Shown piece after piece: positions 12,000 to 33,856 of a stretch of 36,613 nt of DNA; within the stretch, counting starts at the first letter, position 1, and each line of letters begins with the position of its first letter. Where the stretch lies: contig JAUNGL010000016.1 in the NCBI GenBank assembly GCA_030524665.1, positions 1 through 36,613 of the forward strand, in the 5' to 3' direction. A program made the position numbers and the translations under genes. The notes under the pieces were generated by a model. It saw only the letters and a list, made by a program, of their open reading frames with translations. It was not told the origin of the DNA and made no database searches. Source of the stretch: Lachnospiraceae bacterium. GTDB taxonomy: Bacteria; Bacillota; Clostridia; Lachnospirales; Lachnospiraceae.

Positions 12000-14444
12000 A
12001 TGCTGAAAGTCGGTATGTTTATACAGAACAGATATGAGATTATTTCGAGAATCGGTTCCGGCGGCATGGCAGATGTCTATAAGGCAAAAGACCATAAGCT
12101 GAACCGTTTCGTGGCAGTAAAAGTATTGAAAAATGAATTCCGGGATGATAAGAGCTTCGTCTCGAAGTTCCGGGTAGAGGCACAGTCAGCTGCCGGGCTG
12201 GCGCATGCCAATATTGTGAATATTTACGATGTCGGAGAAGAGGCAGGCATCTATTATATTGTGATGGAGCTGGTTGAGGGTATTACCCTGAAAGGCTACA
12301 TAGAGAAGAAGGGCAGACTCTCTGTGCGTGAGGCGACAAGCATCGCACTTCAGATTTCGGCAGGTCTTGAGGCAGCGCATAACAACGGTATTATTCACCG
12401 GGATGTCAAGCCACAGAATATTATTATTTCTACGGATGGCAAGGTTAAGGTTGCAGATTTCGGAATTGCGCGTGCATCGAATTCCAATACCATCAATTCG
12501 AGTGTCATGGGTTCCGTTCATTATAGCTCCCCGGAGCAGTCAAGGGGCGGTTACAGCGATGAGAAGAGTGATATCTATTCACTGGGGATTACGATGTATG
12601 AGATGCTGACCGGGCATGTACCGTTTGACGGGGATACAGCCGTATCGGTGGCAATCAAGCATCTGCAGGAGGAACTGCACGGACCGAAAGAGCTGGTACC
12701 GGAGGTTCCAAACAGTACGAACCAGATTGTGATCAAATGTACACAGAAGAGTCCGGACCGCCGTTATTCCAATATGTCGGAGTTGATCCGTGATCTGCGT
12801 GAGTCGCTGGTAAATCCGGATGGGGATTTTGTAACCCAGCAGGTAGTGGACAACAAGTCGCAGACGATTATCATGTCCAAAGAGCAGGTGAACCGGATTA
12901 ATGCAGAGCGCAGCAATATGCCGTCTTACGACGAGTCGCTGGATGTCGGGGCAGCAGCAGGGCTGCGAGGTCATAATCCTCATGAGGAGGAGAACCGGGC
13001 ATATCAGCCGGGCAGCTATTATCAGAAGAGCGGCTATCAGGAGGTCGTGACGCCCGGACGGAATGAGAACGGTGGCAGTGACCGATGGGATTCAGACTAT
13101 GATCCTTCAGATTCGGATGATCACGATGACTATAATTCTTACTATGACGTCTACGATGATCGGGATAATTATGGATTTCAGGAAGCAGATTATAAATTGG
13201 ATGAAAGCTATTCTGATCAGGACAAGGATCGGAAAGATGGGGATGATATCGGCATCAATCCGAGACTGGAAAAGGCTGTTACGGTTGGAGGGATTATTGT
13301 CGCAGTTATCATTGGATGTGTGTTCCTTTCATTGCTCGCAAATGCGTTCGGATTGCTCAATTTTTCGAAGAGAGACAGAAAAACCACTAAGAGTACGGAA
13401 AAGATAACGGAAAAAGTGGTTGAAAAGTCGACAGAAAAGAAGGATGACGCGGAAAAAACAAGCGAAAAGACAACCGACGCTCCGGACGAGAAGAACACGG
13501 AAGCTCCCGTTGTAAAGCAGGTAGAGGTACCGTCGCTTCTCGGAAAGACAGAAGAAGAAGTTCAGGCTGCACTGCGTGAGAAAGGTCTTTCCGGCAGCAG
13601 AGGACAGGATGCATCCTCTGCAGAGTATGAAGTAGGAAAGGTATGCAGCCAGACCCCGGTAGCAGGAACGATGGTTGACGAAGGAACTCAGATCACCTAT
13701 CAGATCAACAGCAGTTCCGGGGAAATTATCCTGTCTGATTTGACGAATATCGAACAGAGTCAGGCGCAGGCATTTCTGCTGACACAGGGATTGCAGTATA
13801 AGATTGATGAAACTCAGTACAGTGATACGATAGATACCGGATATGTGATCCGCACGGAGCCGGCGGCCAATACGGCACTCCATGAGGGAGATACGGTTAC
13901 ACTTTATATCAGCCAGGGGTCTCAGGCTGAGGTTTCCTATGTGACGGTGCCGGATTTCTGGTATTGTGATCAGGAGATTTCCACACAGCGTGCAGAGCTG
14001 ACTGGTCTGGGAACACCGGTCTTTGAATATGAGCCCAGCAATGAGGTAAATAAGGATTGGGTTGCACGTCAGAGTATTGAGGCAGGGACAGAGGTGCCGG
14101 AGGGTACCGTGATAACGCTGTATCTCAGTTCAGGTCCGGCTCCGGCAGGTGTAGATACACAGGACAATATCACAGTCGAGAATGGCAGTGAAGGAAAATG
14201 GGAATGCAATGCAAAGCTGGATCCGCCTTCCGGATATACAGGGCAGAAAGTCCGGATTGATTTGGTACAGGAAGGTGTAACTACAACTATCTTTACTGGT
14301 GAGACAACATTCCCGTATCTTCTCAAAGTACAGGGTGCACCGGGTGTGACAACTGGTACGGCATACGTTTATCTGCTGAATGATCAGGGAGAAACTGAGA
14401 GTAAGATTGAATATCCCGGTATTATATTCAATCAGGTAAATTGA
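12000..14444 (+). CDS. prkC: PASTA-domain Ser/Thr protein kinase (PrkC/Stk1 type)
   Basis: An 814-aa membrane kinase that senses peptidoglycan fragments or lipid II. The cytoplasmic Hanks-type kinase has GSGGMADV (19-26), the ATP lysine Lys41, HRDVKPQN (133-140) and DFGIA. A juxtamembrane linker (about 285-420) is very rich in Asp, Ser and Tyr. One membrane helix lies near 427-452, followed by a Lys/Thr/Glu-rich stalk and three PASTA repeats (about 508-571, 576-641, 646-713). The last ~100 residues form a predicted beta-rich domain beyond the PASTA repeats, which I do not recognise. Partner of the phosphatase upstream; rsgA follows after 97 bases. Confidence 0.95.
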   Translation: MLKVGMFIQNRYEIISRIGSGGMADVYKAKDHKLNRFVAVKVLKNEFRDDKSFVSKFRVEAQSAAGLAHANIVNIYDVGEEAGIYYIVMELVEGITLKGYIEKKGRLSVREATSIALQISAGLEAAHNNGIIHRDVKPQNIIISTDGKVKVADFGIARASNSNTINSSVMGSVHYSSPEQSRGGYSDEKSDIYSLGITMYEMLTGHVPFDGDTAVSVAIKHLQEELHGPKELVPEVPNSTNQIVIKCTQKSPDRRYSNMSELIRDLRESLVNPDGDFVTQQVVDNKSQTIIMSKEQVNRINAERSNMPSYDESLDVGAAAGLRGHNPHEEENRAYQPGSYYQKSGYQEVVTPGRNENGGSDRWDSDYDPSDSDDHDDYNSYYDVYDDRDNYGFQEADYKLDESYSDQDKDRKDGDDIGINPRLEKAVTVGGIIVAVIIGCVFLSLLANAFGLLNFSKRDRKTTKSTEKITEKVVEKSTEKKDDAEKTSEKTTDAPDEKNTEAPVVKQVEVPSLLGKTEEEVQAALREKGLSGSRGQDASSAEYEVGKVCSQTPVAGTMVDEGTQITYQINSSSGEIILSDLTNIEQSQAQAFLLTQGLQYKIDETQYSDTIDTGYVIRTEPAANTALHEGDTVTLYISQGSQAEVSYVTVPDFWYCDQEISTQRAELTGLGTPVFEYEPSNEVNKDWVARQSIEAGTEVPEGTVITLYLSSGPAPAGVDTQDNITVENGSEGKWECNAKLDPPSGYTGQKVRIDLVQEGVTTTIFTGETTFPYLLKVQGAPGVTTGTAYVYLLNDQGETESKIEYPGIIFNQVN

Positions 14445-21842: not shown

Positions 21843-24131
21843 TTGGCCAAAGGAAACAATACAAAAAAAGAACGAAGATTTACAAAAAAAATGCAAATAA
21901 AGCTTCTGGCTGTATTTGCATTCATTTTATTTATTCTGGTGATACTGCTGCTGCGGATTGCCCACATCAATGTCAAGAGCGGGAAGCGCTATGCGAAGCA
22001 GGTGCTTTCACAGGAAAATTATGACAGCAAGACGCTTTACAGCAGGCGTGGGGAGATTCAGGATAAGAACGGACGGCTTCTGGCATACAGTGAGAAACAG
22101 TATGACGTTGTGCTTGACTGTTACGCTGTGAATCTGCATGAGGATGAAGAAAAGTATGATGAATACGTAGATGCCACGGCAGAGGTTCTGGAAGAAGTTT
22201 TCGATCTTGATAAGTCTGAGATCAAGGATATTATCAAGGATGAAAAGAAGAAATACAGCCAGTATCAGGTAGTGCTGGAGAATATCACGGAAGATCAGAA
22301 GGATGAATATGAGGAATATGTTTCGCTTGATGAGGACAGGGAGCTCTCCGATGAAGAACGGCGGAAGCTGGAAAAGGTAACAGGTATCTGGTTCGAAGAG
22401 ACTTTTGTGCGGAAATATCCGATGAACAGTCTCGCAAGCAACGTGATCGGCTTCTCAAATGAAGTAGGTGACGGTATCTGTGGTCTGGAATCGTATTATG
22501 ATGAAATGCTGAAGGGAACTGACGGAAGAGTGTTCGGATATCTGAATGAAAATCAGGAATATCAGAAACGGACAATTGCTCCTCAGAATGGTTACACTCT
22601 GCAGTCTACGATTGATGTGAATATCCAGCAGATTATTGAAAAATACATTGCTGAGTTTGATGAAGAATACGGTACGGATCACGATGACGGAACTGCGAAG
22701 CACGGTGCGAAAACGGTTGGTGTTGTAGCAATGGATCCGAACTCCGGAGCAATTCTCGGGATGGCGACGAATTCTTCTTTTGATTTGAATGATCCATATG
22801 ACTTGACTGCATGGTATACTCCGTCTGAACTGAAAGCTATGACAAATGAGGAATATGTAGAAGCATTGAATGGCATGTGGAAGAATTTCTGCGTGACGGA
22901 TGGTTTCGAACCAGGTTCCACTGTAAAGCCCATTACCGTTGCGTCAGCGCTTGAGTGCGGTGCCATTACGACAGAGACACCATTTTACTGTGATGGCGGA
23001 GAATTAGTAACGGATACGACCATTCACTGTGACAATGTTTACGGACATGGTGAGGAAACTCTTGCGGATGCAATCAAGAATTCCTGCAACGATGCGCTGA
23101 TGGCGATCGGTCGTGCTATGGGTGTCAGCCGTTTTGTAGAGTATCAGGCATTATTCAACTTTGGTAAGATTACGGGAATTGATCTTCCGAATGAGGCGAC
23201 CGGAGCAGTTTATACACAGAAAGGAATGAATGAAGTAGAGCTTGCGACCTGTTCCTTCGGACAGGGCTTTACGTGTACGATGGTGCAGGAGATTGCAGCA
23301 TTCTGTTCCGTCGTGAATGGTGGATACTATTACCAGCCGCATGTAGTGGACAAGATTCTGGATGAGGATGGGAAGGTAATCCGAAGTATGGACAGCCTTT
23401 TGCTGAAGCAGACGATATCTGCGGATGTTTCGGAGACGCTTAAGGGCTATCTGGAGAATGCGGTAAAAAATGGTACCGGAAGGAAGTCACAGGTGCCGGG
23501 GTACCGGACCGGCGGAAAAACGGGAACTGCTGAGAAGATTAATCCGGAAACAGGAAAACGGTGGGCAGGTAAATACCTGGTTTCCTTCATCGGCGCAGCG
23601 CCGATCAACGATCCTGAGATTGTAATCTATGTAATTGTGGATGAGCCGAACGTTGCGGATCAGGCGGTCAGCACGTATGCACAGACGATTTTCCGTAAGA
23701 TTGCAACGGAAGTACTTCCATATATGAATATTTATCCGACTGAGGAAGTGACGGATGAATTGCTGAATCTGCTGGGTCTCAGCCGCTCGGACATTGTAGA
23801 GGATACGAAGCAAACGTTCGATGCGATGGATTCCTACGGCAATTACCATACGAGAGTTTATGTCAATGAAGCTGGCGTGGTTGTGGCCTCAGACGGGACT
23901 CCGATTGAGGGGGCCTATGTGCGTGACGACGGTACAGTTGTGGATGCTTATGCGAATGAAGTCGGAGTAGTGGAAGGACAGTCGCAGACGGTGGATAAGA
24001 CACTGGACCCGAAGGTAGATAATCCTGATATGGCAACACCGCCCGCGGAGGATACTGGTGATCCGGAGGATTCCGCCGTATGGGATGCAGCAGCCAATCC
24101 TGCTGAAATGGACGATCAGGAGGCAGACTGA
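21843..24131 (+). CDS. Class B penicillin-binding protein (FtsI/PBP2-like) with C-terminal extension
   Basis: A 762-aa division transpeptidase that cross-links septal peptidoglycan. A basic N-terminus and membrane helix (about 18-40) precede the pedestal domain and the transpeptidase domain with STVK (359-362, nucleophile Ser359), SCN (414-416) and KTGT (559-562). About 130 residues follow that are neither PASTA nor another domain I know; residues 674-713 match the C-terminus of DivIB (FtsQ) from this cluster. The start is TTG 21843 with AGGTGA just upstream; no better codon precedes the membrane helix. It is followed by a terminator-like hairpin and a second PBP gene. Confidence 0.93.
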   Translation: MAKGNNTKKERRFTKKMQIKLLAVFAFILFILVILLLRIAHINVKSGKRYAKQVLSQENYDSKTLYSRRGEIQDKNGRLLAYSEKQYDVVLDCYAVNLHEDEEKYDEYVDATAEVLEEVFDLDKSEIKDIIKDEKKKYSQYQVVLENITEDQKDEYEEYVSLDEDRELSDEERRKLEKVTGIWFEETFVRKYPMNSLASNVIGFSNEVGDGICGLESYYDEMLKGTDGRVFGYLNENQEYQKRTIAPQNGYTLQSTIDVNIQQIIEKYIAEFDEEYGTDHDDGTAKHGAKTVGVVAMDPNSGAILGMATNSSFDLNDPYDLTAWYTPSELKAMTNEEYVEALNGMWKNFCVTDGFEPGSTVKPITVASALECGAITTETPFYCDGGELVTDTTIHCDNVYGHGEETLADAIKNSCNDALMAIGRAMGVSRFVEYQALFNFGKITGIDLPNEATGAVYTQKGMNEVELATCSFGQGFTCTMVQEIAAFCSVVNGGYYYQPHVVDKILDEDGKVIRSMDSLLLKQTISADVSETLKGYLENAVKNGTGRKSQVPGYRTGGKTGTAEKINPETGKRWAGKYLVSFIGAAPINDPEIVIYVIVDEPNVADQAVSTYAQTIFRKIATEVLPYMNIYPTEEVTDELLNLLGLSRSDIVEDTKQTFDAMDSYGNYHTRVYVNEAGVVVASDGTPIEGAYVRDDGTVVDAYANEVGVVEGQSQTVDKTLDPKVDNPDMATPPAEDTGDPEDSAVWDAAANPAEMDDQEAD

Positions 24132-24165
24132 TGCTATAAGGCCGGAGAAACAGAAAATCTGACAT

Positions 24166-24215
24166 AACCTCATAAAAGCGGTAATACACTGTATTAAAGC
24201 TTTTATGAGGTTTTT
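24166..24215 (+). terminator. Terminator-like hairpin that overlaps the next ribosome site
   Basis: A 14-base arm at 24166-24179 pairs perfectly with 24199-24212, the loop contains a further AATAC/GTATT pairing, and TTTTT follows (24211-24215). The 3' arm includes ATGAGG (24205-24210), the only Shine-Dalgarno sequence for the gene starting at 24218. If folded, the hairpin would both stop transcription and hide that site. Confidence 0.8.
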
Positions 24216-24217
24216 CT

Positions 24218-25963
24218 ATGCAGAAAACAAGGAGCTTTCACAGGAAAAAGACCGTGGTAATCTTCCTGTTCTGCTTTGCTGCACTTGTAGGACTCGGTGG
24301 GAGGCTGGCGGCGCTGATGGTGGCGGATTCGGAGTATTACGCAACGCTTGCTCAGGATCTGCATGAGCGTGAGAGAACAATCAAGGCGGCACGCGGGAGA
24401 ATTCTGGACCGGAACGGTACCGTACTGGCCGATAACCGGACGGTATGTACGGTGTCGGTGATCCACAATCAGATCGAGGATGCGGAGCAGGTGATTGAGG
24501 TCCTGTGCAGAGAGCTTGAGATGGAAGAGGAGACCGTCCGGAAGCGCGTGGAAAAGGTCAGTTCGATTGAGCGGATTGCGAAAAATGTCGAGAAGGAAAA
24601 GGGTGACAGAATTAGAAACTACGAGCTTGCGGGAGTGAAGGTAGATGAGGATTACAGACGGTATTATCCTTTTGGAAGTATGGCGTCCAAGGTGCTCGGA
24701 TTCACAGGCGGTGATAATCAGGGGATCATTGGGCTGGAAGTGAAGTATGAGGATGTTCTGGAGGGAATACCGGGGAAAATCCTGACACTCACAGATGCAA
24801 GGGGAGTAGAACTGGAGGATACGGGCGAGAGCAGGCAGGAGCCTGTGGATGGAAATGATCTGTGTATCAGCCTTGATTACAATATCCAGCAATATGTGGA
24901 GCAGGCGGCTTACAAGGTGATGGAACAAAAGGAGGCGGACAGCGTATCCATCATTATCATGAACCCGCAGAACGGTGAAATCTATGCAATGACCAATGTG
25001 CCGGAGTTTGACCTGAATGACCCGTATACCCTGCAGAGTGGGAATGATGGACTGGCAGGAGAGGAGCTTCAGGATGCACTGAACCGCATGTGGAGAAATG
25101 GGTGCATTAATGATACGTATGAGCCAGGCTCCACATTTAAGGTGATCACAGCATCAGCTGGTTTGGAGGCCGGTGTAGTCTCACTGAACGATCAGTTTTC
25201 CTGTCCAGGCTTCAAGATTGTGGAGGACCGGAGAATCCGTTGTCATAAAGTAGGGGGACACGGTGGTGAGACATTCGTACAGGCGACGCAGAATTCCTGC
25301 AACCCGGTTTTTATCGAAGTCGGACTGAGACTCGGCGTGGAACGGTATTTTGAGTATTTTCGCCAGTTTGGGTTGAATGAAAAGACCGGAATTGATTTGC
25401 CGGGAGAGGCGGCCACGATCATGCACAAACAGGAAAACGTAGGTCTGGTAGAATTGGCTACGATATCATTCGGACAGTCCTTCCAGATCACCCCGGTACA
25501 GCTTGCGACGACGATCAGTTCTCTGATCAATGGAGGTATACGTGTAATGCCGCATTTCGGTGTACGGGTAAAATCACGTGACGGGACACTTCTGAAGGTG
25601 TACCAGTATGAACAGGAGAGAAGAATTCTCTCGGAAGAGACTTCTGAGACAGTGCGGTACCTGCTGGAGCAGGTAGTCGACGGCGGGGGCGGGAAAAATG
25701 CCTATATCGAAGGATACAGGATCGGGGGAAAGACGGCAACTTCTGAGACTCTTCCGAGAAGTGCTAACAAATATATTTCTTCCTTTGTCGGTTTCACTCC
25801 GGCAGATGATCCGCAGGTACTTGGATTGTGTGTGATCAACAATCCGCAGGGCGTATATTATGGCGGAACAATCGCGGCGCCTGTAATCCGTGAGATATTC
25901 CAGAACATCCTGCCGTATCTGGGAATTGAGCGGGCAGAGGTGGAAAGCGAGACAGAAAGTTAA
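24218..25963 (+). CDS. Class B penicillin-binding protein, SpoVD-like
   Basis: A 581-aa membrane transpeptidase with an N-terminal membrane helix (about 12-33), a dimerisation/pedestal region beginning with ARGRILDRNG, and catalytic motifs STFK (305-308, Ser305), SCN (360-362) and KTAT (505-508). The third motif is KTA where most class B PBPs have KTG. No PASTA domain is present, unlike Bacillus SpoVD. As a paralogue beside the division PBP in a probable spore-former, it may act in spore cortex synthesis; this role is inferred. Expression is likely set apart by the hairpin directly upstream. ATG 24218 lies 2 bases after the U-run. Confidence 0.9.
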   Translation: MQKTRSFHRKKTVVIFLFCFAALVGLGGRLAALMVADSEYYATLAQDLHERERTIKAARGRILDRNGTVLADNRTVCTVSVIHNQIEDAEQVIEVLCRELEMEEETVRKRVEKVSSIERIAKNVEKEKGDRIRNYELAGVKVDEDYRRYYPFGSMASKVLGFTGGDNQGIIGLEVKYEDVLEGIPGKILTLTDARGVELEDTGESRQEPVDGNDLCISLDYNIQQYVEQAAYKVMEQKEADSVSIIIMNPQNGEIYAMTNVPEFDLNDPYTLQSGNDGLAGEELQDALNRMWRNGCINDTYEPGSTFKVITASAGLEAGVVSLNDQFSCPGFKIVEDRRIRCHKVGGHGGETFVQATQNSCNPVFIEVGLRLGVERYFEYFRQFGLNEKTGIDLPGEAATIMHKQENVGLVELATISFGQSFQITPVQLATTISSLINGGIRVMPHFGVRVKSRDGTLLKVYQYEQERRILSEETSETVRYLLEQVVDGGGGKNAYIEGYRIGGKTATSETLPRSANKYISSFVGFTPADDPQVLGLCVINNPQGVYYGGTIAAPVIREIFQNILPYLGIERAEVESETES

Positions 25964-25982
25964 ACAAAAAATGGGAAAGAGG

Positions 25983-26011
25983 TTGAATAATCAAACCAAA
26001 CGAATTATACT
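25983..26011 (+). promoter_or_regulatory. Promoter of mraY-murD-ftsW-murA
   Basis: TTGAAT (25983-25988), a 17-base spacer and TATACT (26006-26011) lie 90 bases before mraY. With the hairpin upstream of the SpoVD-like gene, this gives the second half of the cluster its own transcription. Confidence 0.75.
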
Positions 26012-26101
26012 TAACAAGTGTGACCATGTCGGTATCACAGAAGAATAAAAGCGGCACGACCGGGGATAACGGTGGCTGCGGATAAAAATAAGAGGTGTGA
26101 G

Positions 26102-27082
26102 ATGATAGTAAATCAGGATGTATTGATTCCATTATTTGCAGCATTTCTGGTCAGTGTGCTGCTTAGCCCGATTGTAATTCCGTTTTTACAGAGACTGAAG
26201 GTAGGGCAGACAGAGCGTGAAGAAGGCGTGAAGGCTCATCTGAAAAAGGCAGGTACTCCCACGATGGGAGGTCTGATCATGCTGATCAGTATCGTAGTGG
26301 TTTCTCTGTTTTATATCAGGACGTATCCGCGTATCATTCCGGTTCTGTTTCTGGTGCTTGGATTCGGCATTATTGGTTTTCTGGACGACTACCTGAAAGT
26401 GGTGATGCGCCGCTCAGATGGTTTGTATCCGAAGCAGAAGATGCTGGGGCAGTTGATTGTGACTACAGTGTTTGTGGTATATCTCTGGGTTATGGACAGC
26501 GCCAGCCTTGAGATGATGGTTCCATTTTCCCTGTTCGGAGTTGAGACACTTTCGGGTACTACTGTGAAGATTGTAGCGACACCGCTTGTTTATCTGGCTG
26601 TGATCGGTACGGTCAATGGTGTGAATTTCACGGATGGACTGGATGGACTTGCGACAGGAGTGACTACCATTGTGGCAGTTTTCTATACTGTAGTATCAAT
26701 GACGCTGAAGGCAGGAATTGAGCCGCTGACTGCTGCCGTTACGGGAGCCCTGCTTGGTTTCCTTCTTTTTAATGTTTATCCGGCGAAGGTGTTTATGGGT
26801 GATACAGGGTCGCTGGCACTTGGAGGATTTGTGGCAGGAGCTGCTTATATGATGAAAATGCCGTTGTTCATCCCGATCATCGGTCTGATTTACTTTGTAG
26901 AAGTACTTTCAGTTATGATACAGGTGACTTATTTTAAGAAAACCGGAGGAAAGCGCTTCTTTAAGATGGCGCCGATTCACCACCACTTCGAACTCTGCGG
27001 ATGGTCGGAGACGAGAATTGTAACGGTATTTACCGTTATCACGACATTTCTTTGTTTGCTGGCACTCGTTGCAATTGGTTAA
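26102..27082 (+). CDS. mraY: Phospho-N-acetylmuramoyl-pentapeptide-transferase
   Basis: A 326-aa polytopic membrane enzyme (about ten helices) that transfers phospho-MurNAc-pentapeptide to undecaprenyl phosphate to make lipid I. Diagnostic motifs are TPTMGGL, FLDDYLKV (Asp95, Asp96), NFTDGLDGLATG, FMGDTGSLALGG and MAPIHHHFE. ATG 26102 follows AGAGGTG; the upstream GTG 26072 adds residues outside the family. Lipid I should next be glucosylated by MurG, but no murG is in the window. Confidence 0.95.
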   Translation: MIVNQDVLIPLFAAFLVSVLLSPIVIPFLQRLKVGQTEREEGVKAHLKKAGTPTMGGLIMLISIVVVSLFYIRTYPRIIPVLFLVLGFGIIGFLDDYLKVVMRRSDGLYPKQKMLGQLIVTTVFVVYLWVMDSASLEMMVPFSLFGVETLSGTTVKIVATPLVYLAVIGTVNGVNFTDGLDGLATGVTTIVAVFYTVVSMTLKAGIEPLTAAVTGALLGFLLFNVYPAKVFMGDTGSLALGGFVAGAAYMMKMPLFIPIIGLIYFVEVLSVMIQVTYFKKTGGKRFFKMAPIHHHFELCGWSETRIVTVFTVITTFLCLLALVAIG

Positions 27083-27219
27083 TGCGCGCTTATATGCCCG
27101 GAGAGTATACGCCTGTGAAACAGTGCGGAGCACATAAAATTCCGGGATGCCCGAAAGGGATGTCTCCACGGAGGGCAGGTTTCACATATTAAACAGGATA
27201 ATCGTTTGGAGGAACAGAT
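27083..27219 (+). other. Spacer with inverted repeats before murD
   Basis: TGTGAAAC (27114-27121) and GTTTCACA (27179-27186) are perfect inverted 8-mers enclosing a small CCC-GAAA-GGG hairpin. No U-run follows. A structured leader is possible; no known RNA family is recognised. Confidence 0.4.
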
Positions 27220-28578
27220 ATGGAATGGACAGGAAAGACGGTTTTGGTATTTGGTACCGGTATCAGCGGAATTGGGGCCGCAAGGCTGCTGGCAAAGCTG
27301 CAGGCCGATATCGTCCTGTATGATGGAAATACAGAAATTGATGCGGAGAAAGTACTTGCGAAGCTTCCGGAGGGCTGCCATGCAAGAGTCGTTCTCGGAG
27401 AACTTTCGGAGGAAGTGATCGATACTCTGGAATTGGCGGTGTTAAGTCCGGGAGTCCCGTGTGATCTCCCGGTTGTGAACCGGATGAGAGAGGGAGGAAT
27501 CCAGATCTGGGGAGAAGTGGAGCTGGCTTACCGCTGTGGAAAGGGTGATGTTCTGGCGATTACCGGAACGAACGGCAAGACAACTACGACAAGCCTGCTC
27601 GGAGAAATCATGAGAAGCTGCCGGAATGAGGTACATGTGGTAGGAAATATTGGATTTTCCTATACGGAAGCGGCGATGGAGATGACGGAGAAGGCAGTGA
27701 CGGTTGCTGAGATCAGTAGTTTCCAGCTGGAGACAACTGAGCAGTTTGCACCGCGTGTCAGTGCAATCACAAATATCACGCCGGATCATCTGAACCGTCA
27801 TCATACGATGGCGGAATATATCCGTGTCAAGGAACTGATTGCGGCACATCAGAGACCGGAGGATACGTGTGTACTGAATTATGAGGATGAGGTCCTTCGG
27901 GAGTTCGGGGCGAAGCTGCCGGTAAATGTTGTCTGGTTCAGCAGCAGCCGCAGGCTCGAGCGGGGACTTTATCTGGAGGATGAGAAGATTAAGATAGCTT
28001 CAGAGGATGGGATTACGGAGCTCTGTTCTGTGCATGAGCTGAATATCCTTGGATTACATAATTACGAAAATGTAATGACGGCCGCAGCGATGGCGCTCGC
28101 ATACGGCGTTTCCGTGGAAGAGATTCGTCCCGTTCTGCGCAGCTTTCAGGCAGTGGAACACCGGATTGAGTACGTGACTGAGAAAAACGGCGTTGTATAT
28201 TATAATGATTCCAAGGGAACGAATCCGGATGCAGCGATTAAGGGGATTCAGGCGATGAACCGCCCGACGCTGCTGATCGGCGGAGGATATGACAAGAATT
28301 CCTCCTACGAAGAATGGATCCGGGCATTCGATGGAAAGGTGAAATATCTGGTGCTGATCGGACAGACGAGAGAGAAGATTGCTGAGGCTGCGAGAAGCTG
28401 TGGATTCGAATCTATTATTATGGCGGATTCGCTCGAAGAAGCGGTGCATGTCTGTGCAGCAAAAGCAGTGCCGGGAGATGCGGTCCTGCTTTCCCCGGCT
28501 TGTGCAAGCTGGGGTATGTTCCCAAATTATGAAGTGCGGGGACGGCAATTCAAAGAACTGGTACATCAATTATCATAG
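27220..28578 (+). CDS. murD: UDP-N-acetylmuramoylalanine--D-glutamate ligase
   Basis: A 452-aa cytoplasmic Mur ligase that adds D-Glu to UDP-MurNAc-L-Ala. The N-terminal Rossmann-like UDP-binding domain starts TVLVFGTGISGIG; the ATP loop GTNGKTTTT is at 116-124; the central domain has ITPDHLNRH and the C-terminal domain YNDSKGTNPDA. TTGGAGG upstream supports the start. It precedes the reaction of MurE, whose gene lies about 23 kb upstream. ftsW follows 11 bases later. Confidence 0.96.
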   Translation: MEWTGKTVLVFGTGISGIGAARLLAKLQADIVLYDGNTEIDAEKVLAKLPEGCHARVVLGELSEEVIDTLELAVLSPGVPCDLPVVNRMREGGIQIWGEVELAYRCGKGDVLAITGTNGKTTTTSLLGEIMRSCRNEVHVVGNIGFSYTEAAMEMTEKAVTVAEISSFQLETTEQFAPRVSAITNITPDHLNRHHTMAEYIRVKELIAAHQRPEDTCVLNYEDEVLREFGAKLPVNVVWFSSSRRLERGLYLEDEKIKIASEDGITELCSVHELNILGLHNYENVMTAAAMALAYGVSVEEIRPVLRSFQAVEHRIEYVTEKNGVVYYNDSKGTNPDAAIKGIQAMNRPTLLIGGGYDKNSSYEEWIRAFDGKVKYLVLIGQTREKIAEAARSCGFESIIMADSLEEAVHVCAAKAVPGDAVLLSPACASWGMFPNYEVRGRQFKELVHQLS

Positions 28579-28589
28579 GAAGTGGTTTT

Positions 28590-29669
28590 TTGCGTTTCAA
28601 ACCGGGAAAAACAGACGGACTCCTGCTGGCGGCAGTGTTGTTCCTGACGGGATTTGGTCTGGTGGTTCTTTACAGTATGAGCGCATATAATGGGCAGGTC
28701 CGTTTCGGTGACGCTGCCTATTATTTTAAGAAACAGTTTTTTGCCATGACGCTTGGCATGGCAGTGATGTACGGAGTTTCTAGAATCGACTACCATGCAC
28801 TCGAGAGGCTGGCGGTACCTGCATATTTATTGTCATTGCTGCTTTCCGGTGCTGTGCTTCTGGTAGGAGATACCTATAACGGATCTAAGAGATGGCTTTC
28901 GCTTGGCCCGTTATCTTTCCAGCCGGCTGAATATGCGAAGCCCGCGGTCATATTGCTGCTCGCTGCGATGGTCAGCCGTATGGAGAAGAAAAAGAGTGTC
29001 ATTATGATACTGTCAGTGACCGGCATGGTGCTGCCTATTGTGGCGCTGGTCGGTACCAATAACCTGAGCACGGCAGTCATTATTCTCGGGATTGCCGTAG
29101 TCATGATCTTTATTTCCAATCCCAGGTACCTGCCGTTTGTCTGGATTGTGTTGTGTGGCTCCGGGCTGCTTGGTATCTTTTTGAGTCTGGAGCAGTACCG
29201 CCTGGAACGTCTGGCAATCTGGCGCCATCCGGAGCAGTATGAGAAGGGATATCAGACGATGCAGGGACTGTATGCGATTGGTTCCGGTGGTCTGTTCGGG
29301 CGAGGGTTCGGCAATAGCCTGCAGAAGCTCGGCTTTGTGCCGGAGGCGCAGAATGATATGATCTTTTCCGTGATCTGCGAGGAGCTGGGACTGTTCGGTG
29401 CGCTGCTGCTGATGCTGTTATTTCTGCTGCTTTTGTGGAGATTCATGGTGATCTCGACACATGCACCGGATTTGTTCGGTTCCCTGATTGTGGCCGGGAT
29501 TATGGGGCATATCGCGATACAGGTGATTTTGAATATCGCTGTCGTGACCAATACGATTCCGAATACGGGAATCACGCTGCCGTTTATCAGCTTCGGCGGT
29601 ACTTCCGTATTGTTTCTGCTGGCGGAGATGGGGCTTGCACTGTCGGTGAGCAGGTGGAGCGGGGGATAA
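28590..29669 (+). CDS. ftsW: SEDS-family peptidoglycan glycosyltransferase FtsW/SpoVE
   Basis: A 359-aa membrane protein with about ten helices that polymerises lipid II and works with a class B PBP. The SEDS motifs GSKRWLSLGPLSFQPAE and QNDMIFSVICEELG (catalytic Asp256) and the C-terminal NTGITLPFISFGGTS are clear. The start is TTG with AGGAAG upstream. FtsW and the sporulation paralogue SpoVE cannot be told apart by sequence alone; position in the dcw cluster favours the division role. In most clusters murG would follow; here murA does. Confidence 0.92.
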   Translation: MRFKPGKTDGLLLAAVLFLTGFGLVVLYSMSAYNGQVRFGDAAYYFKKQFFAMTLGMAVMYGVSRIDYHALERLAVPAYLLSLLLSGAVLLVGDTYNGSKRWLSLGPLSFQPAEYAKPAVILLLAAMVSRMEKKKSVIMILSVTGMVLPIVALVGTNNLSTAVIILGIAVVMIFISNPRYLPFVWIVLCGSGLLGIFLSLEQYRLERLAIWRHPEQYEKGYQTMQGLYAIGSGGLFGRGFGNSLQKLGFVPEAQNDMIFSVICEELGLFGALLLMLLFLLLLWRFMVISTHAPDLFGSLIVAGIMGHIAIQVILNIAVVTNTIPNTGITLPFISFGGTSVLFLLAEMGLALSVSRWSGG

Positions 29670-29799
29670 AGAAGGTCTTTTGCTGCCCTGAGAGCGGATA
29701 TCAGCGAAGAACAGCAGAATTTTTGTATCCTTTCAGATATACATGCATATACTAGGATATATGGTCTGCCGCAGGCTGCTGCGGAACGGAAACCGGGGG

Positions 29800-31056
29800 A
29801 TGCATTTGAGATATCTGGAAATTAAAGGAGGAAAAAAGCTTGACGGGGACATCAGAGTGCAGGGTTCCAAGAATGCGGTACTGCCGATTCTGACGTCCTG
29901 TATTCTTGGAGGAGGAGTCTGCCGGATCGGAAATTGTCCGCGTATCAGCGATGTAGAAGTGACGCTGGGAATCCTGAAGGCAGTCGGGTGTAAAGTAATT
30001 CAGGAGAAGCATACGGTCTGTGTGGATGCGACGGATGTGTCTGTCTGTGAGATTCCTGCATCCGAAGCATCCCGCACTCGTTCATCTGTGCTGTTTCTCG
30101 GAGCATTAATCGGAAGATGCAGGAAAGCGGTGCTTCCGGTGCCCGGAGGATGTGCGATCGGAGCCAGGCCAGTCGATTTACACAGGAAGGCGCTGGAGAA
30201 ACTTGGAGTGACGTTTTCCGGGCAGGAATCCATGACTGCGGATGGCAGTGGCCTGAGTGGAGCAGTTATCCATCTTTCTTTTCCGAGTGTCGGTGCAACG
30301 GAAAACAGCATTCTTGCTGCCGTACTTGCGCCTGGAACCACTGTGATTGAACAGGCGGCTCAGGAGCCTGAGATCGATGAGCTGATCCATTTCCTGAATC
30401 TGCGAGGTGCCAGAATCCGGCGAAAGAAGGACGGGAGTATTTGGATTGAAGGGGTAAAAGAGCTGTACCCGGTGAAGTATACGATGCAGGCAGATCGGAT
30501 TGTGGTGGGAACATATCTGTTAGGTGCTGTGTCCGCAGGAGGCAGGGTCAGAGTTCTGAACTATCCGAAACATGGGCTGGAGCTTCCAATGGAGCTGTTC
30601 CGGGAAATGGGAGCAGTGGTCCGGATGGAAGAGGAAAGCTGTGAATTGAAGTGCTCGGGAAGACCAAAGGCGCTATCGTATCTTGAGACGGCTCCGTATC
30701 CGGGCTTTCCGACGGACCTGCAATCGCTGTTTACCGCTGTCTTGGCGTGTGCCGACGGCAGAAGCCGTATCCGCGAAACGATATTTGAAAATCGCTTTCA
30801 GATGGTACAAGAGCTGAAAAGGATGGGGGCACAGATCGAAGTATACGGTAATACCGCATGGATTCAGGGAATACCAAGGCTGCAGGGAGCTGAGGTCAGT
30901 GCGACAGATCTGAGAAGCGGAGCAGGGCTTGTACTGGCAGGACTGGGAGCATCAGATGTCACCAGAGTGCGGAATGTGGAATATATTGAACGGGGATACG
31001 AAGATATCTGCAGGGATTTTGGCAGGCTTGGGGCAGATATACAGATGTGCCAATGA
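29800..31056 (+). CDS. murA: UDP-N-acetylglucosamine 1-carboxyvinyltransferase
   Basis: A 418-aa enzyme for the first committed step of peptidoglycan synthesis, adding enolpyruvate to UDP-GlcNAc. The N-terminus has GSKNAVLPIL (catalytic Lys), the loop PGGCAIGARPVDLH carries the active Cys118 that fosfomycin would attack, and FPTDLQS supplies the catalytic Asp. Starting at ATG 29800 (MHLRYLEIKGG) matches family N-termini; in-frame ATG codons at 29743 and 29761 would add up to 19 residues and cannot be fully excluded because the ribosome site is weak. Confidence 0.93.
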   Translation: MHLRYLEIKGGKKLDGDIRVQGSKNAVLPILTSCILGGGVCRIGNCPRISDVEVTLGILKAVGCKVIQEKHTVCVDATDVSVCEIPASEASRTRSSVLFLGALIGRCRKAVLPVPGGCAIGARPVDLHRKALEKLGVTFSGQESMTADGSGLSGAVIHLSFPSVGATENSILAAVLAPGTTVIEQAAQEPEIDELIHFLNLRGARIRRKKDGSIWIEGVKELYPVKYTMQADRIVVGTYLLGAVSAGGRVRVLNYPKHGLELPMELFREMGAVVRMEEESCELKCSGRPKALSYLETAPYPGFPTDLQSLFTAVLACADGRSRIRETIFENRFQMVQELKRMGAQIEVYGNTAWIQGIPRLQGAEVSATDLRSGAGLVLAGLGASDVTRVRNVEYIERGYEDICRDFGRLGADIQMCQ

Positions 31057-31116
31057 TGGAAGAAGCAACAGAAAGAAACAACAGATGAAAGAGACAACAA
31101 ATGGAGAGTATGGGTC

Positions 31117-31995
31117 ATGTACGAATTGATACAAGTTTCAGAGCAAAGCTACTATATTCAAAGCCCTGCCAAAATCGGGCTTGTGAAGCTGAACGATAAG
31201 GATGTCTGCTTAATTGACAGCGGCAATGATAAAGATGCAGGGCGGAAGATACGGAAAATTCTGGACGAAAACGGCTGGCATCTGATTGCCATTTACAATA
31301 CGCATTCCAATGCGGATCATATCGGCGGAAACAAATACCTGCAGGGACAGACCGGATGTAAAATTTATGTGCCGGGGATGGAATGTGATTTTACAAGACA
31401 TCCGGTTCTGGAGCCGGCATTTTTGTACGGCGGATATCCCTGTAAGGATCTGCGGCATAAATTCCTCATGGCACAGGAAAGCGATGCGGAGTACCTGACG
31501 AAGAACGTTTTACCGGAAGGCTTTCAAATGATTTCCCTGCCGGGACATTTCTTTGATATGACAGGATTCCGGACACCGGATGATGTCATTTTCCTAGCGG
31601 ACTGTCTTTCCAGCCGGGAAACGCTTGACAAGTATCAGATTGGCTTTATTTATGATATTGCAGCTTACATAAAAACGCTTGAAATGGTGAAAACACTGGA
31701 TGCCAGGATGTTTGTGCCGGCCCATGCGGCGGCAACAGAGGATATTGCGCCGCTGGCGCAGTTTAACATAGATAAGGTTCTGGAAATTGCAGACCGGATT
31801 ACAGAGATTTGCCGGGAACCGCTCTGCTTTGAAGTTATTTTGCAGAAGCTGTTCGATATGTATGGTCTGACGATGAATTTCGAACAGTATGTACTGGTCG
31901 GCAGCACGGTACGTTCTTATCTTGCCTGGCTGAAGGACACCGGCAGAGTCAGCGCACGGTTCGAGCACTGCATGCTGCTCTGGGAACGGACTTAG
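31117..31995 (+). CDS. Metallo-beta-lactamase-fold hydrolase with variant metal motif
   Basis: A 292-aa cytoplasmic protein of the MBL superfamily; no signal peptide. The metal motif reads THSNADHIGG (from residue 62): the second His of HxHxDH is Asn65, while Asp67 and His68 remain. Further ligands are PGHFFDMTG, FLADCLSS and VPAHAAA. A C-terminal helical segment (about 215-290) resembles the winged tail of LACTB2-like members. The substrate is unknown. It interrupts the usual murA-to-ftsQ spacing, followed 23 bases later by a truncated RpiB-like gene, so both may have arrived together. Confidence 0.8.
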   Translation: MYELIQVSEQSYYIQSPAKIGLVKLNDKDVCLIDSGNDKDAGRKIRKILDENGWHLIAIYNTHSNADHIGGNKYLQGQTGCKIYVPGMECDFTRHPVLEPAFLYGGYPCKDLRHKFLMAQESDAEYLTKNVLPEGFQMISLPGHFFDMTGFRTPDDVIFLADCLSSRETLDKYQIGFIYDIAAYIKTLEMVKTLDARMFVPAHAAATEDIAPLAQFNIDKVLEIADRITEICREPLCFEVILQKLFDMYGLTMNFEQYVLVGSTVRSYLAWLKDTGRVSARFEHCMLLWERT

Positions 31996-32018
31996 AATGT
32001 GAAAACGGAGAAACGATT

Positions 32019-32321
32019 ATGAAAATAGGTGTAATACAGGCCAGTTCACAATCTGACAAAAACGAGCTGCTTTATAATTGTGTTGCCAAAAATGTGAAAA
32101 GGCATGGATACGAAGTGATTAACTTCGGCTGTTTCAAAGAGGAAGCTCAAAAGTATTCATATGTAGAAACATCATTGGAGGTTGGACTTCTTTTGGCGAG
32201 CAAAGCAGTTGATTTTATTGTTACGGGGTGCTCGTCCGGACAGGGAATGATGCTGGCCTGCAACAGTCTGCCTGATGTGATATGCGGATATATTTCAAAT
32301 CCACAGGATGCCTTTCTCTAA
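32019..32321 (+). pseudogene. Truncated RpiB/LacA/LacB-family isomerase
   Basis: A 100-codon frame with the N-terminal half of an RpiB/LacAB-type sugar-phosphate isomerase: MKIGVIQASSQSDKNELLY, then FIVTGCSSGQGMMLACNSLPDVICGYISNPQDAFL, where it stops. Full-length members continue with the rest of the active site and C-terminal helices. Translation of the next 140 bases in the other frames gives nothing like the missing part, so this is a deletion or recombination remnant and not a simple frameshift. A short functional product is possible but unlikely. Confidence 0.7.
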
Positions 32322-32377
32322 GATTAGTGAATCATAACATTAACAATGCTTGCACAGAAATGTATTTCGATTCGTTC

Positions 32378-32406
32378 TTGACATTATGTATATACAAATA
32401 TAGAAT
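32378..32406 (+). promoter_or_regulatory. Promoter with internal palindrome for the RHH gene and ftsQ
   Basis: TTGACA (32378-32383), a 17-base spacer and TAGAAT (32401-32406) make a near-consensus promoter. The spacer contains the perfect 10-bp palindrome TGTATATACA (32387-32396), a plausible operator for the ribbon-helix-helix protein encoded next. Confidence 0.8.
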
Positions 32407-32462
32407 ATGTGTGGAAGAAGACAGTTTCCCTTCATAGATGTTACGATTCAGGGGGTGACGGA

Positions 32463-32657
32463 GTGGCGAAGGTGGGAAGACCAAAAGCAGAAAATCCGCG
32501 TGCGGAGACGATGTACCTCCGTCTGACGGCACAGGAAAAGGACACGCTGGAGAAGTATGCTTCCAAACATGGCCTTAACAAGACACAGGTGGTCGTGAAA
32601 GGCATTCAGGCATTGGTAGACGCAGATGAGAAAGATAATAACAGTGCCATAGGATAA
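32463..32657 (+). CDS. Small ribbon-helix-helix DNA-binding protein
   Basis: A 64-aa protein. After a basic arm (MAKVGRPKAENPR) comes a beta strand (TMYLRLT), then two helices (AQEKDTLEKYASKHG and NKTQVVVKGIQALV), the pattern of Arc/CopG-type repressors. GTG 32463 with GGGGGTGA at 32451-32458 is the likely start; a longer frame from 32409 adds residues that do not fit. Such proteins commonly repress their own promoter as dimers; the palindrome at 32387-32396 is the obvious candidate site. It is not part of canonical dcw clusters and lies 23 bases before ftsQ, so it could influence division gene expression. Confidence 0.75.
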   Translation: MAKVGRPKAENPRAETMYLRLTAQEKDTLEKYASKHGLNKTQVVVKGIQALVDADEKDNNSAIG

Positions 32658-32680
32658 AATGAAAAGGTACGGGTGACACG

Positions 32681-33856
32681 ATGGAGAGAATACGGAGAAG
32701 AAGAAAGCGGATGATGCGGCTGATATCCGTTGCGTTTCTGATGATCGCAGCCGCAGTGATATTACTGGGATTCCGGGTGAGGACAGTGGTTGTTACAGGG
32801 AATACGAGGCATACGGGGCAGGAGATCGCTTCCGGCCTGTCGCATGATTTCCTGACACAGAATACGCTGTATCTTCTGTGGAAATACAGAAAGGAGGATA
32901 TACCGGAAGCACTGCCGTATTTGAATGCTATGAAGATTAAGATGCAGTCGCCATCCAGGATCGAAGTGACTGTAACGGAAAAAGAACCGGTAGGTTATCT
33001 GGATAAAGAGAGCAATATTTATTTTGACAAAGATGGAATGGTATTGGAGATCTCGGATGAGGTGTATGAGGATGTGCCGGTAGTGACCGGGGTTTCCGCA
33101 GGAGAGGCGGTGCTGTATCAGAGAGTTCCGACAGACAGCAGCGCACAGCTTCGTACGATTCTGAGTCTGACACAGCTTTTGAGTTATCAGGAGCTGCGTG
33201 CAAAGGAGATCCGTTTTGGCGAAAATATGGATATCACTGTGACGATCGGCAGTGTGGATGCGGTTCTTGGACAGGATGAGTATCTGGAAGAAAAGATCGC
33301 CAATCTGAGGGCAATTCTGGACTCCATGGATGGCCGTGCAGGGACACTTCATATGGAAAACTTCACCGGCAAAAATGAACCGGTGACATTTACCAATTCG
33401 GATGGCACGGAAGAGACGAATCCGGGCAGCAGTGAAGGAAACAGTTCAGGTGACGAGAATGGCACCGGAGACGGGAACGCGGCAGGCGGAGAAGGCGATG
33501 ACAGCAGCGGTGATGGAGCCGGAGCCGATGATGGTACGGTTTCCGGTGAAGATGGAGCAGGAAGCACTGGCGAGGGAGCCGCACAGGGCGAAGACGGAAC
33601 TGTGGACGAAGGAGCTGCTCAGGCGGGAGAAGGCAGCGGAGAAGCCGGAACGCCGGAGGAAGAACAGCCGCAGTCGACGACGTTTATGGTATTTAATTCG
33701 AGCGGCACGCTGGTATATGATGCACATGTAGTCAATGGCGTCGTTGTGGATGGAAATGGCAATCCGATTGATGGCTGTTCAGTGAACGAGGACGGCAATG
33801 CAGTAGACGCGTACTGGAATGTCATAGACCCTGCAACCGGCCAGTTGGTACAGTAG
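32681..33856 (+). CDS. ftsQ: Cell division protein DivIB/FtsQ with low-complexity insert
   Basis: A 391-aa single-pass divisome protein. A basic N-terminus and membrane helix (about 12-31) are followed by a POTRA domain (about 32-103: VRTVVVTGNTRHTGQEIAS) and the beta domain up to about 235. Residues 240-331 are a Gly/Glu/Asp/Ser/Ala-rich tract without hydrophobic residues, which is unusual for the family. The last 60 residues contain a motif (349-388) shared with the C-terminus of the first PBP of this cluster. Its partners should be FtsL and DivIC. The start is fixed by GGGTGA. Homology is clear for the POTRA part only. Confidence 0.88.
   Translation: MERIRRRRKRMMRLISVAFLMIAAAVILLGFRVRTVVVTGNTRHTGQEIASGLSHDFLTQNTLYLLWKYRKEDIPEALPYLNAMKIKMQSPSRIEVTVTEKEPVGYLDKESNIYFDKDGMVLEISDEVYEDVPVVTGVSAGEAVLYQRVPTDSSAQLRTILSLTQLLSYQELRAKEIRFGENMDITVTIGSVDAVLGQDEYLEEKIANLRAILDSMDGRAGTLHMENFTGKNEPVTFTNSDGTEETNPGSSEGNSSGDENGTGDGNAAGGEGDDSSGDGAGADDGTVSGEDGAGSTGEGAAQGEDGTVDEGAAQAGEGSGEAGTPEEEQPQSTTFMVFNSSGTLVYDAHVVNGVVVDGNGNPIDGCSVNEDGNAVDAYWNVIDPATGQLVQ

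Follow-up and report, generated by a model that had tools for sequence, protein, structure and literature searches.

The way in which DivIB (FtsQ) exerts control over the septal synthase is not settled. In the stretch of DNA analyzed here, two of the encoded proteins, a class B penicillin-binding protein (PBP) at the ftsI/pbpB position of the dcw (division and cell wall) cluster and DivIB itself, carry similar segments in their outer tails. The stretch, below called the window, is the contig JAUNGL010000016.1 of a Lachnospiraceae bacterium (assembly GCA_030524665.1), positions 1–36,613 of the forward strand, 36,613 nucleotides in length. As judged by alignments and profile searches, the similar segments are copies of a small, conserved, previously undescribed module in two septal wall-building proteins of one group of gut bacteria. 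As the module sits on two partners at the ends that make contact in other Bacillota, it offers a compact and testable handle, a domain of about 50 residues, on the control of the septal synthase.

The PBP gene lies at 21843..24131 of the plus strand (762 amino acids, TTG start) and the divIB gene at 32681..33856 of the same strand (391 amino acids). A first-pass annotation had aligned PBP residues 674–713 with DivIB residues 349–388 without gaps, with identities at 18 of 40 positions, and our recount gave exactly this number. A Smith–Waterman local alignment of the whole proteins yielded a gapped match of PBP 658–713 with DivIB 334–388 and a score of 92, whereas residue shuffles of the two tails (n = 5000) reached a maximum of 72 with a mean of 37.2. 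With the segments alone, the score was 90 in comparison to a maximum of 56 among 5000 shuffles. When the DivIB query was searched against the genome from which the window originates (E ≤ 10), the only matches were DivIB and, with E = 2.5e-4, the tail of the PBP. As no shuffle reached the score of 92 and the query matched nothing beyond these two, the likeness of the tails is not due to chance. We then aligned 22 PBP tails (alignment A2) and 27 DivIB tails (alignment A3) and used a joint profile (A4), which likewise gave only two matches in the same genome at E ≤ 10, the PBP and DivIB; as this assembly comprises 242 contigs and is 82% complete, a further, unsequenced copy is possible. A profile of the PBP tails aligned with a profile of the DivIB tails by hhalign with a probability of 99.4 (E = 1.7e-21, 49 columns, 41% identity), both profiles being shallow and compared one to one. 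On these sequence grounds, the two copies are homologous.

The shared unit is about 50–56 residues long, from F.AFDS.G to DAYMN or DAYWN, and thus begins some 16 residues earlier than the 40-residue segment initially delimited. The PBP copy covers residues 657–713 (23811..23981, plus strand; profile A4 E = 2.7e-23, alignment A2) and is separated from the transpeptidase core, to which BLAST matches extend up to residue 640, by a short gap of residues 641–656 (23763..23810, plus strand). The DivIB copy, which adds an IDP.TG end, covers residues 334–391 (33680..33853, plus strand; profile A4 E = 5.8e-29 over 33680–33844, alignment A3) and follows a variable linker rich in G, D, E, and S (residues 241–333; 33401..33679, plus strand). 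This arrangement recurred in a set of 49 loci, one of them a duplicate: the DivIB module stood at the end of the protein, preceded by 51–130 residues of linker and followed by only 3–6 residues, and the PBP module started 16–22 residues past the BLAST-matched core and was followed by 41–62 residues. The description as a C-terminal motif therefore applies literally to DivIB, whereas the PBP copy is not terminal; the extracellular location of both copies, in proteins of the divisome, is as had been proposed.

According to mean pairwise identities from 250 of the 1176 locus pairs, the DivIB module (0.68) is better kept than the DivIB core (0.52) and the linker (0.35), and in the PBP, identity was 0.71 in the core (last 300 residues), 0.55 in the module, and 0.41 in the following end. 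The alignments thus support a module that is real, homologous, and selectively kept. Self-likeness at a distance of 19 residues exceeded that of column shuffles (reached by 0 of 200 for DivIB and by 1 of 200 for the PBP, computed on distinct rows of modal length, 20 for DivIB and 19 for the PBP); smaller maxima occurred at 7 and 12. This pattern agrees with about three units of 19 residues, which would probably fold into three beta-hairpins. The A4 alignment contains five invariant columns, none of which is aromatic.

The module was present in all 47 genomes of the genus, with exactly two matches in 44 of them. A DivIB-sized carrier frame was found in 46 and a PBP-sized one in 46 of the 47 genomes, gene identity being established by BLAST for the fetched loci and by frame length alone for the others. 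The 92 strong matches (E ≤ 5.7e-19) consisted of 46 PBP-sized and 46 DivIB-sized frames, and there was one weak extra match (E = 0.005). In one genome only the PBP was matched, but its contig of 8,625 bases does not contain DivIB and the genome is 78% complete, so that its DivIB simply escaped notice. In a family sample of 397 genomes, 29 had a match at E ≤ 0.01, and strong matches occurred in six genomes (four genera), with two matches per genome; in one of these (G284), the second match lay at the edge of a contig and covered only 24 residues (E = 5.5e-9). None of these six was a PBP-only carrier, which the search with the joint profile was able to show. The other 23 genomes gave partial and weak matches (E = 3.4e-5 or worse), as named by eye mainly carboxypeptidase-regulatory stretches of surface proteins, besides N-terminal parts of other PBPs, GH25-like lysozymes, a flagellar hook-like protein, and unrelated enzymes. 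In the two lysozymes (L109 and L122, E = 3.4e-5 and 0.0037), a stretch G.[YF]V...G..I.GA resembles the module, which we take as chance. Samples of the order (246 genomes) and the phylum (299 genomes) gave, at E ≤ 0.001, the source genome and one match of 23–26 residues each, and nothing else.

A scan of named genomes, which was seeded with the DivIB copy and is therefore blind to PBP-only carriers, yielded 64 loci, nearly all from metagenome-assembled genomes titled Lachnospiraceae, Clostridiales, or Clostridia, with one titled Oscillospiraceae; Candidatus Choladousia, Candidatus Merdiplasma, Porcincola intestinalis, and Bacterium 1XD42-54 are among the carriers. Both genes carried the module in 47 of the 64 loci, 16 had no PBP match on the fetched DNA, and one (L196) had only a PBP paralogue of 32% identity. 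At strong scores, the module is restricted to the PBP and DivIB. A general wall-binding repeat was rejected, as no strong carrier besides PBP and DivIB frames occurred in the source genome or in the genus, family, order, and phylum samples, and the FtsL-like open reading frames that we read contained no module-like extension that could be a third copy. The first-pass annotation had suggested looking for further carriers in related proteomes and had named as counter-evidence a loss of the similarity in orthologues or a match to a common repeat of unrelated secreted proteins. The profile search found strong carriers only as PBP and DivIB frames within one clade, the similarity persisted in the orthologues of this clade but vanished outside it in the family, and the searches of the source genome, family, order, and phylum spoke against a common repeat.

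The earlier impression that this is not a known domain was borne out, as no Pfam family matched the module above its cutoff, and a PDB sequence search gave nothing significant (best E = 0.026). The nearest family was DUF3659 (PF12396), which 39 of 41 module sequences matched at E ≤ 1 (best E = 4.8e-5); the DivIB module of the window reached 22.6 bits with a cutoff of 24.8, and the whole PBP 13.9 bits. Composition alone does not account for this, as none of ten controls, nine shuffled modules and a reversed one, had a Pfam match at E ≤ 1. As these scrambled controls matched nothing, a distant likeness between DUF3659 and the hairpin units of the module is possible; the name DUF3659 was absent from the literature that we searched. 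Beta-flowers (PF21784 and PF21785) are described as repeats of four, five, or six hairpins that bear a [DNEQ]xxG motif (PMC10584680). The module has about three 19-residue units and matched these families only weakly (7 and 3 of 41 sequences; best E = 0.0026 and 0.024); by unit number and Pfam match it falls short of a beta-flower. With the carboxypeptidase regulatory-like domain (PF13620), it has the stretch G.V.D..G.PI.GA.V in common, and 14 of 41 modules matched (best E = 0.0063), but the matches in large surface proteins span only 19–42 module residues and the remainder of the module is unlike. Repeats of the choline-binding type have conserved aromatic W/Y pairs in each hairpin. The module differs from these in that A4 has no invariant aromatic column, and no such family was among the 25 Pfam families listed. 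By these comparisons, we assign the module to none of the DUF3659, beta-flower, and carboxypeptidase-regulatory families. Our literature search found no report of the module and no paper joining Lachnospiraceae and DivIB.

With respect to the origin of the two copies, all 23 sampled carriers formed one clade in a tree of PBP cores (Shimodaira–Hasegawa-like approximate likelihood ratio support of 99), which was computed by a quick method from 23 carriers and 27 non-carriers picked for long DivIB frames; the neighbors of this clade were G027/G140, followed by G121 and G105. In a tree of the modules (96 rows, but only 55 columns), one branch split the PBP from the DivIB copies (97/95; recovered in 98% of 200 bootstrap trees), and because of this complete separation, gene conversion between the copies was rejected. 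The DivIB ends of G027, G121, and G140 are related to the module, with an hhalign probability of 92 over 35 columns in comparison to the DivIB profile and of 13 in comparison to the PBP profile, and the PBP tails of these genomes have D..GN.I repeats or scant likeness to the module. This related end of DivIB, a sister version with the sequence TDGYGYIDPYTGAYI (L252–L258), occurred in 7 of the 397 family genomes with one match each, all in DivIB. As this related DivIB tail has no PBP partner, the DivIB copy is probably older than the PBP copy, which in turn was probably gained once in the ancestor of the clade, either by a copying event that started from DivIB or from a common source.

What the two copies might do is best considered in the light of the contacts known from other divisomes. 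In Pseudomonas aeruginosa, the contact site of FtsI, FtsB, and FtsQ lies late in both chains. The respective study names FtsI R226, R551, and N554 together with FtsQ P264 and N265 as the sole such site (PMC7614612). According to a second source, the C-terminal gamma domain of pneumococcal DivIB is protected from trypsin by PBP2x, and in Bacillus subtilis PBP2B is bound by residues near the C-terminus of DivIB (PMC3798694); a model of the Staphylococcus aureus complex has the beta and gamma domains of DivIB meeting the PASTA domains of PBP1 (PMC10994846). The module sits on the same two proteins, and at the corresponding ends, as the contact that these studies report or model for Bacillota. That contact involves the DivIB tail and PASTA domains, whereas in the window the PBP has no PASTA match and a homologous module is found on both partners. 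As these two tails come together in other bacteria, according to experiments or models, we tentatively favor, with somewhat less than even confidence, the reading that the module is a lineage-specific docking element within the septal synthase complex. The small extracellular module that ends DivIB on a long variable tether and its counterpart in the FtsI-position PBP, 16–22 residues past the transpeptidase core, would then bind either each other or one common site on a divisome partner. A bolder version, in which one gut Lachnospiraceae clade rewired its divisome by copying the DivIB hairpin module onto the septal PBP, so that stacking or pairing of the homologous modules replaced the contact between PASTA domains and gamma tail, appears rather unlikely to us.

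Several observations weigh against docking. One genome (G955, 98% complete; L249, 3321–5432) is a natural single loss of the PBP module: its PBP, a frame of 704 amino acids with 60% identity that keeps the NPDMA motif, has cleanly lost the module (A4 E = 0.11), whereas the DivIB copy is intact (E = 4.6e-27), and the PBP copy can thus be lost. Module distances showed no co-variation beyond that of the two protein cores; co-evolution of the copies was not found (partial correlation of −0.17 given the cores, a value that 4988 of 5000 permutations equalled or exceeded). The co-occurrence has essentially one origin and thus counts as few independent events, and the PBP module, although better kept than the end that follows it, is less conserved than the PBP core. 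The missing co-variation and the loss in G955 speak for a partner shared by both modules, or for a PBP copy that can be dispensed with, rather than for an obligate mutual pairing.

The same two observations would also fit independent binding of both modules to one non-protein septal ligand, such as nascent peptidoglycan, lipid II, or teichoic or lipoteichoic acid, which would enrich both proteins at new wall without any mutual contact. Beta-hairpin repeats often bind wall ligands, and the weak third match in the genus (G183, E = 0.005) belongs to a protein in which choline-binding-like wall-binding repeats are recognizable by eye. Wall hydrolases should profit from such a module as well, but neither the source genome nor the 47 genus genomes contain another exported protein that carries it at comparable strength. 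The absence of such a third carrier makes the wall ligand, a possibility raised in the first-pass annotation, the less favored reading, and we regard it as unlikely, if worth keeping in mind. A PBP copy that itself does little or nothing, left by recombination within the dcw cluster that copied a functional DivIB module, would fit its clean loss in G955, its lower conservation, and the DivIB-only relatives in 7 of the 397 family genomes. Against this stand its retention in 46 of 47 genus genomes, its presence in all 47 named loci in which the PBP end was found beside the DivIB copy, and its lasting distinctness from that copy without signs of gene conversion, and we consider this explanation improbable. 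Convergence, finally, would mean that outer tails drifted to short acidic hairpin-like repeats (D..GN.I), which are good soluble spacers, and that their likeness reveals little about function. The 19-residue periodicity of the module itself agrees with this, as do the DENGNVI/DEYGNVI repeats in PBP tails of sister genera (G027 and G140) and the D..GN repeats in their DivIB tails. Against drift stand the match over 49 columns in one register, with the repeat-specific DAYMN/DAYWN and the N-terminal F..FDS.G part, and a DivIB module that exceeds the DivIB core in conservation, which the adjoining linker does not; convergence appears very improbable to us.

Returning to docking, the complex that carries the module could be one of the sporulation septum rather than of vegetative division. 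The best NCBIfam match of both dcw PBPs of the window was spoVD_pbp, below its cutoff, and in Clostridioides difficile the dcw synthases including the dcw PBP serve sporulation, the PBP being sporulation-specific (PMC10693644).

The PBP matched two Pfam families above their cutoffs, PBP_dimer (E = 6e-16) and the transpeptidase family (E = 7.4e-64). DivIB scored slightly below the cutoffs of POTRA_1 (E = 1.6e-4; 22.4 of 23 bits) and FtsQ_DivIB_C (E = 0.0028; 19 of 21 bits), but its position in the dcw cluster and its orthologues throughout the family (145 of 150 genomes) support the assignment. The open reading frame upstream of the PBP gene is FtsL-like by position and conservation and had no Pfam match. 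Neither PBP of the window gave a PASTA match in Pfam at E ≤ 1; a PASTA-type serine/threonine kinase with three PASTA stretches is encoded upstream of the dcw genes (12000–14444). A gene for a metallo-beta-lactamase fold protein (31117–31995) lies between a murA-like gene of the EPSP synthase family and divIB. The acidic end of the PBP (residues 727–762; 24021..24128, plus strand) opens with NPDMATPP. By eye, a similar motif, N-P-x-[MIL]-x-x-P, recurs in the PBP ends of module carriers and in those of several module-free family members, and it may bind a partner separately from the module. Simple repeats have expanded in the outer tails of DivIB or the PBP in several other genomes and loci (G105, G098, and G138; L006 and L098-type), for example YYGDG in the DivIB of G105 and GDTGEWTGDED in the PBP of G098.

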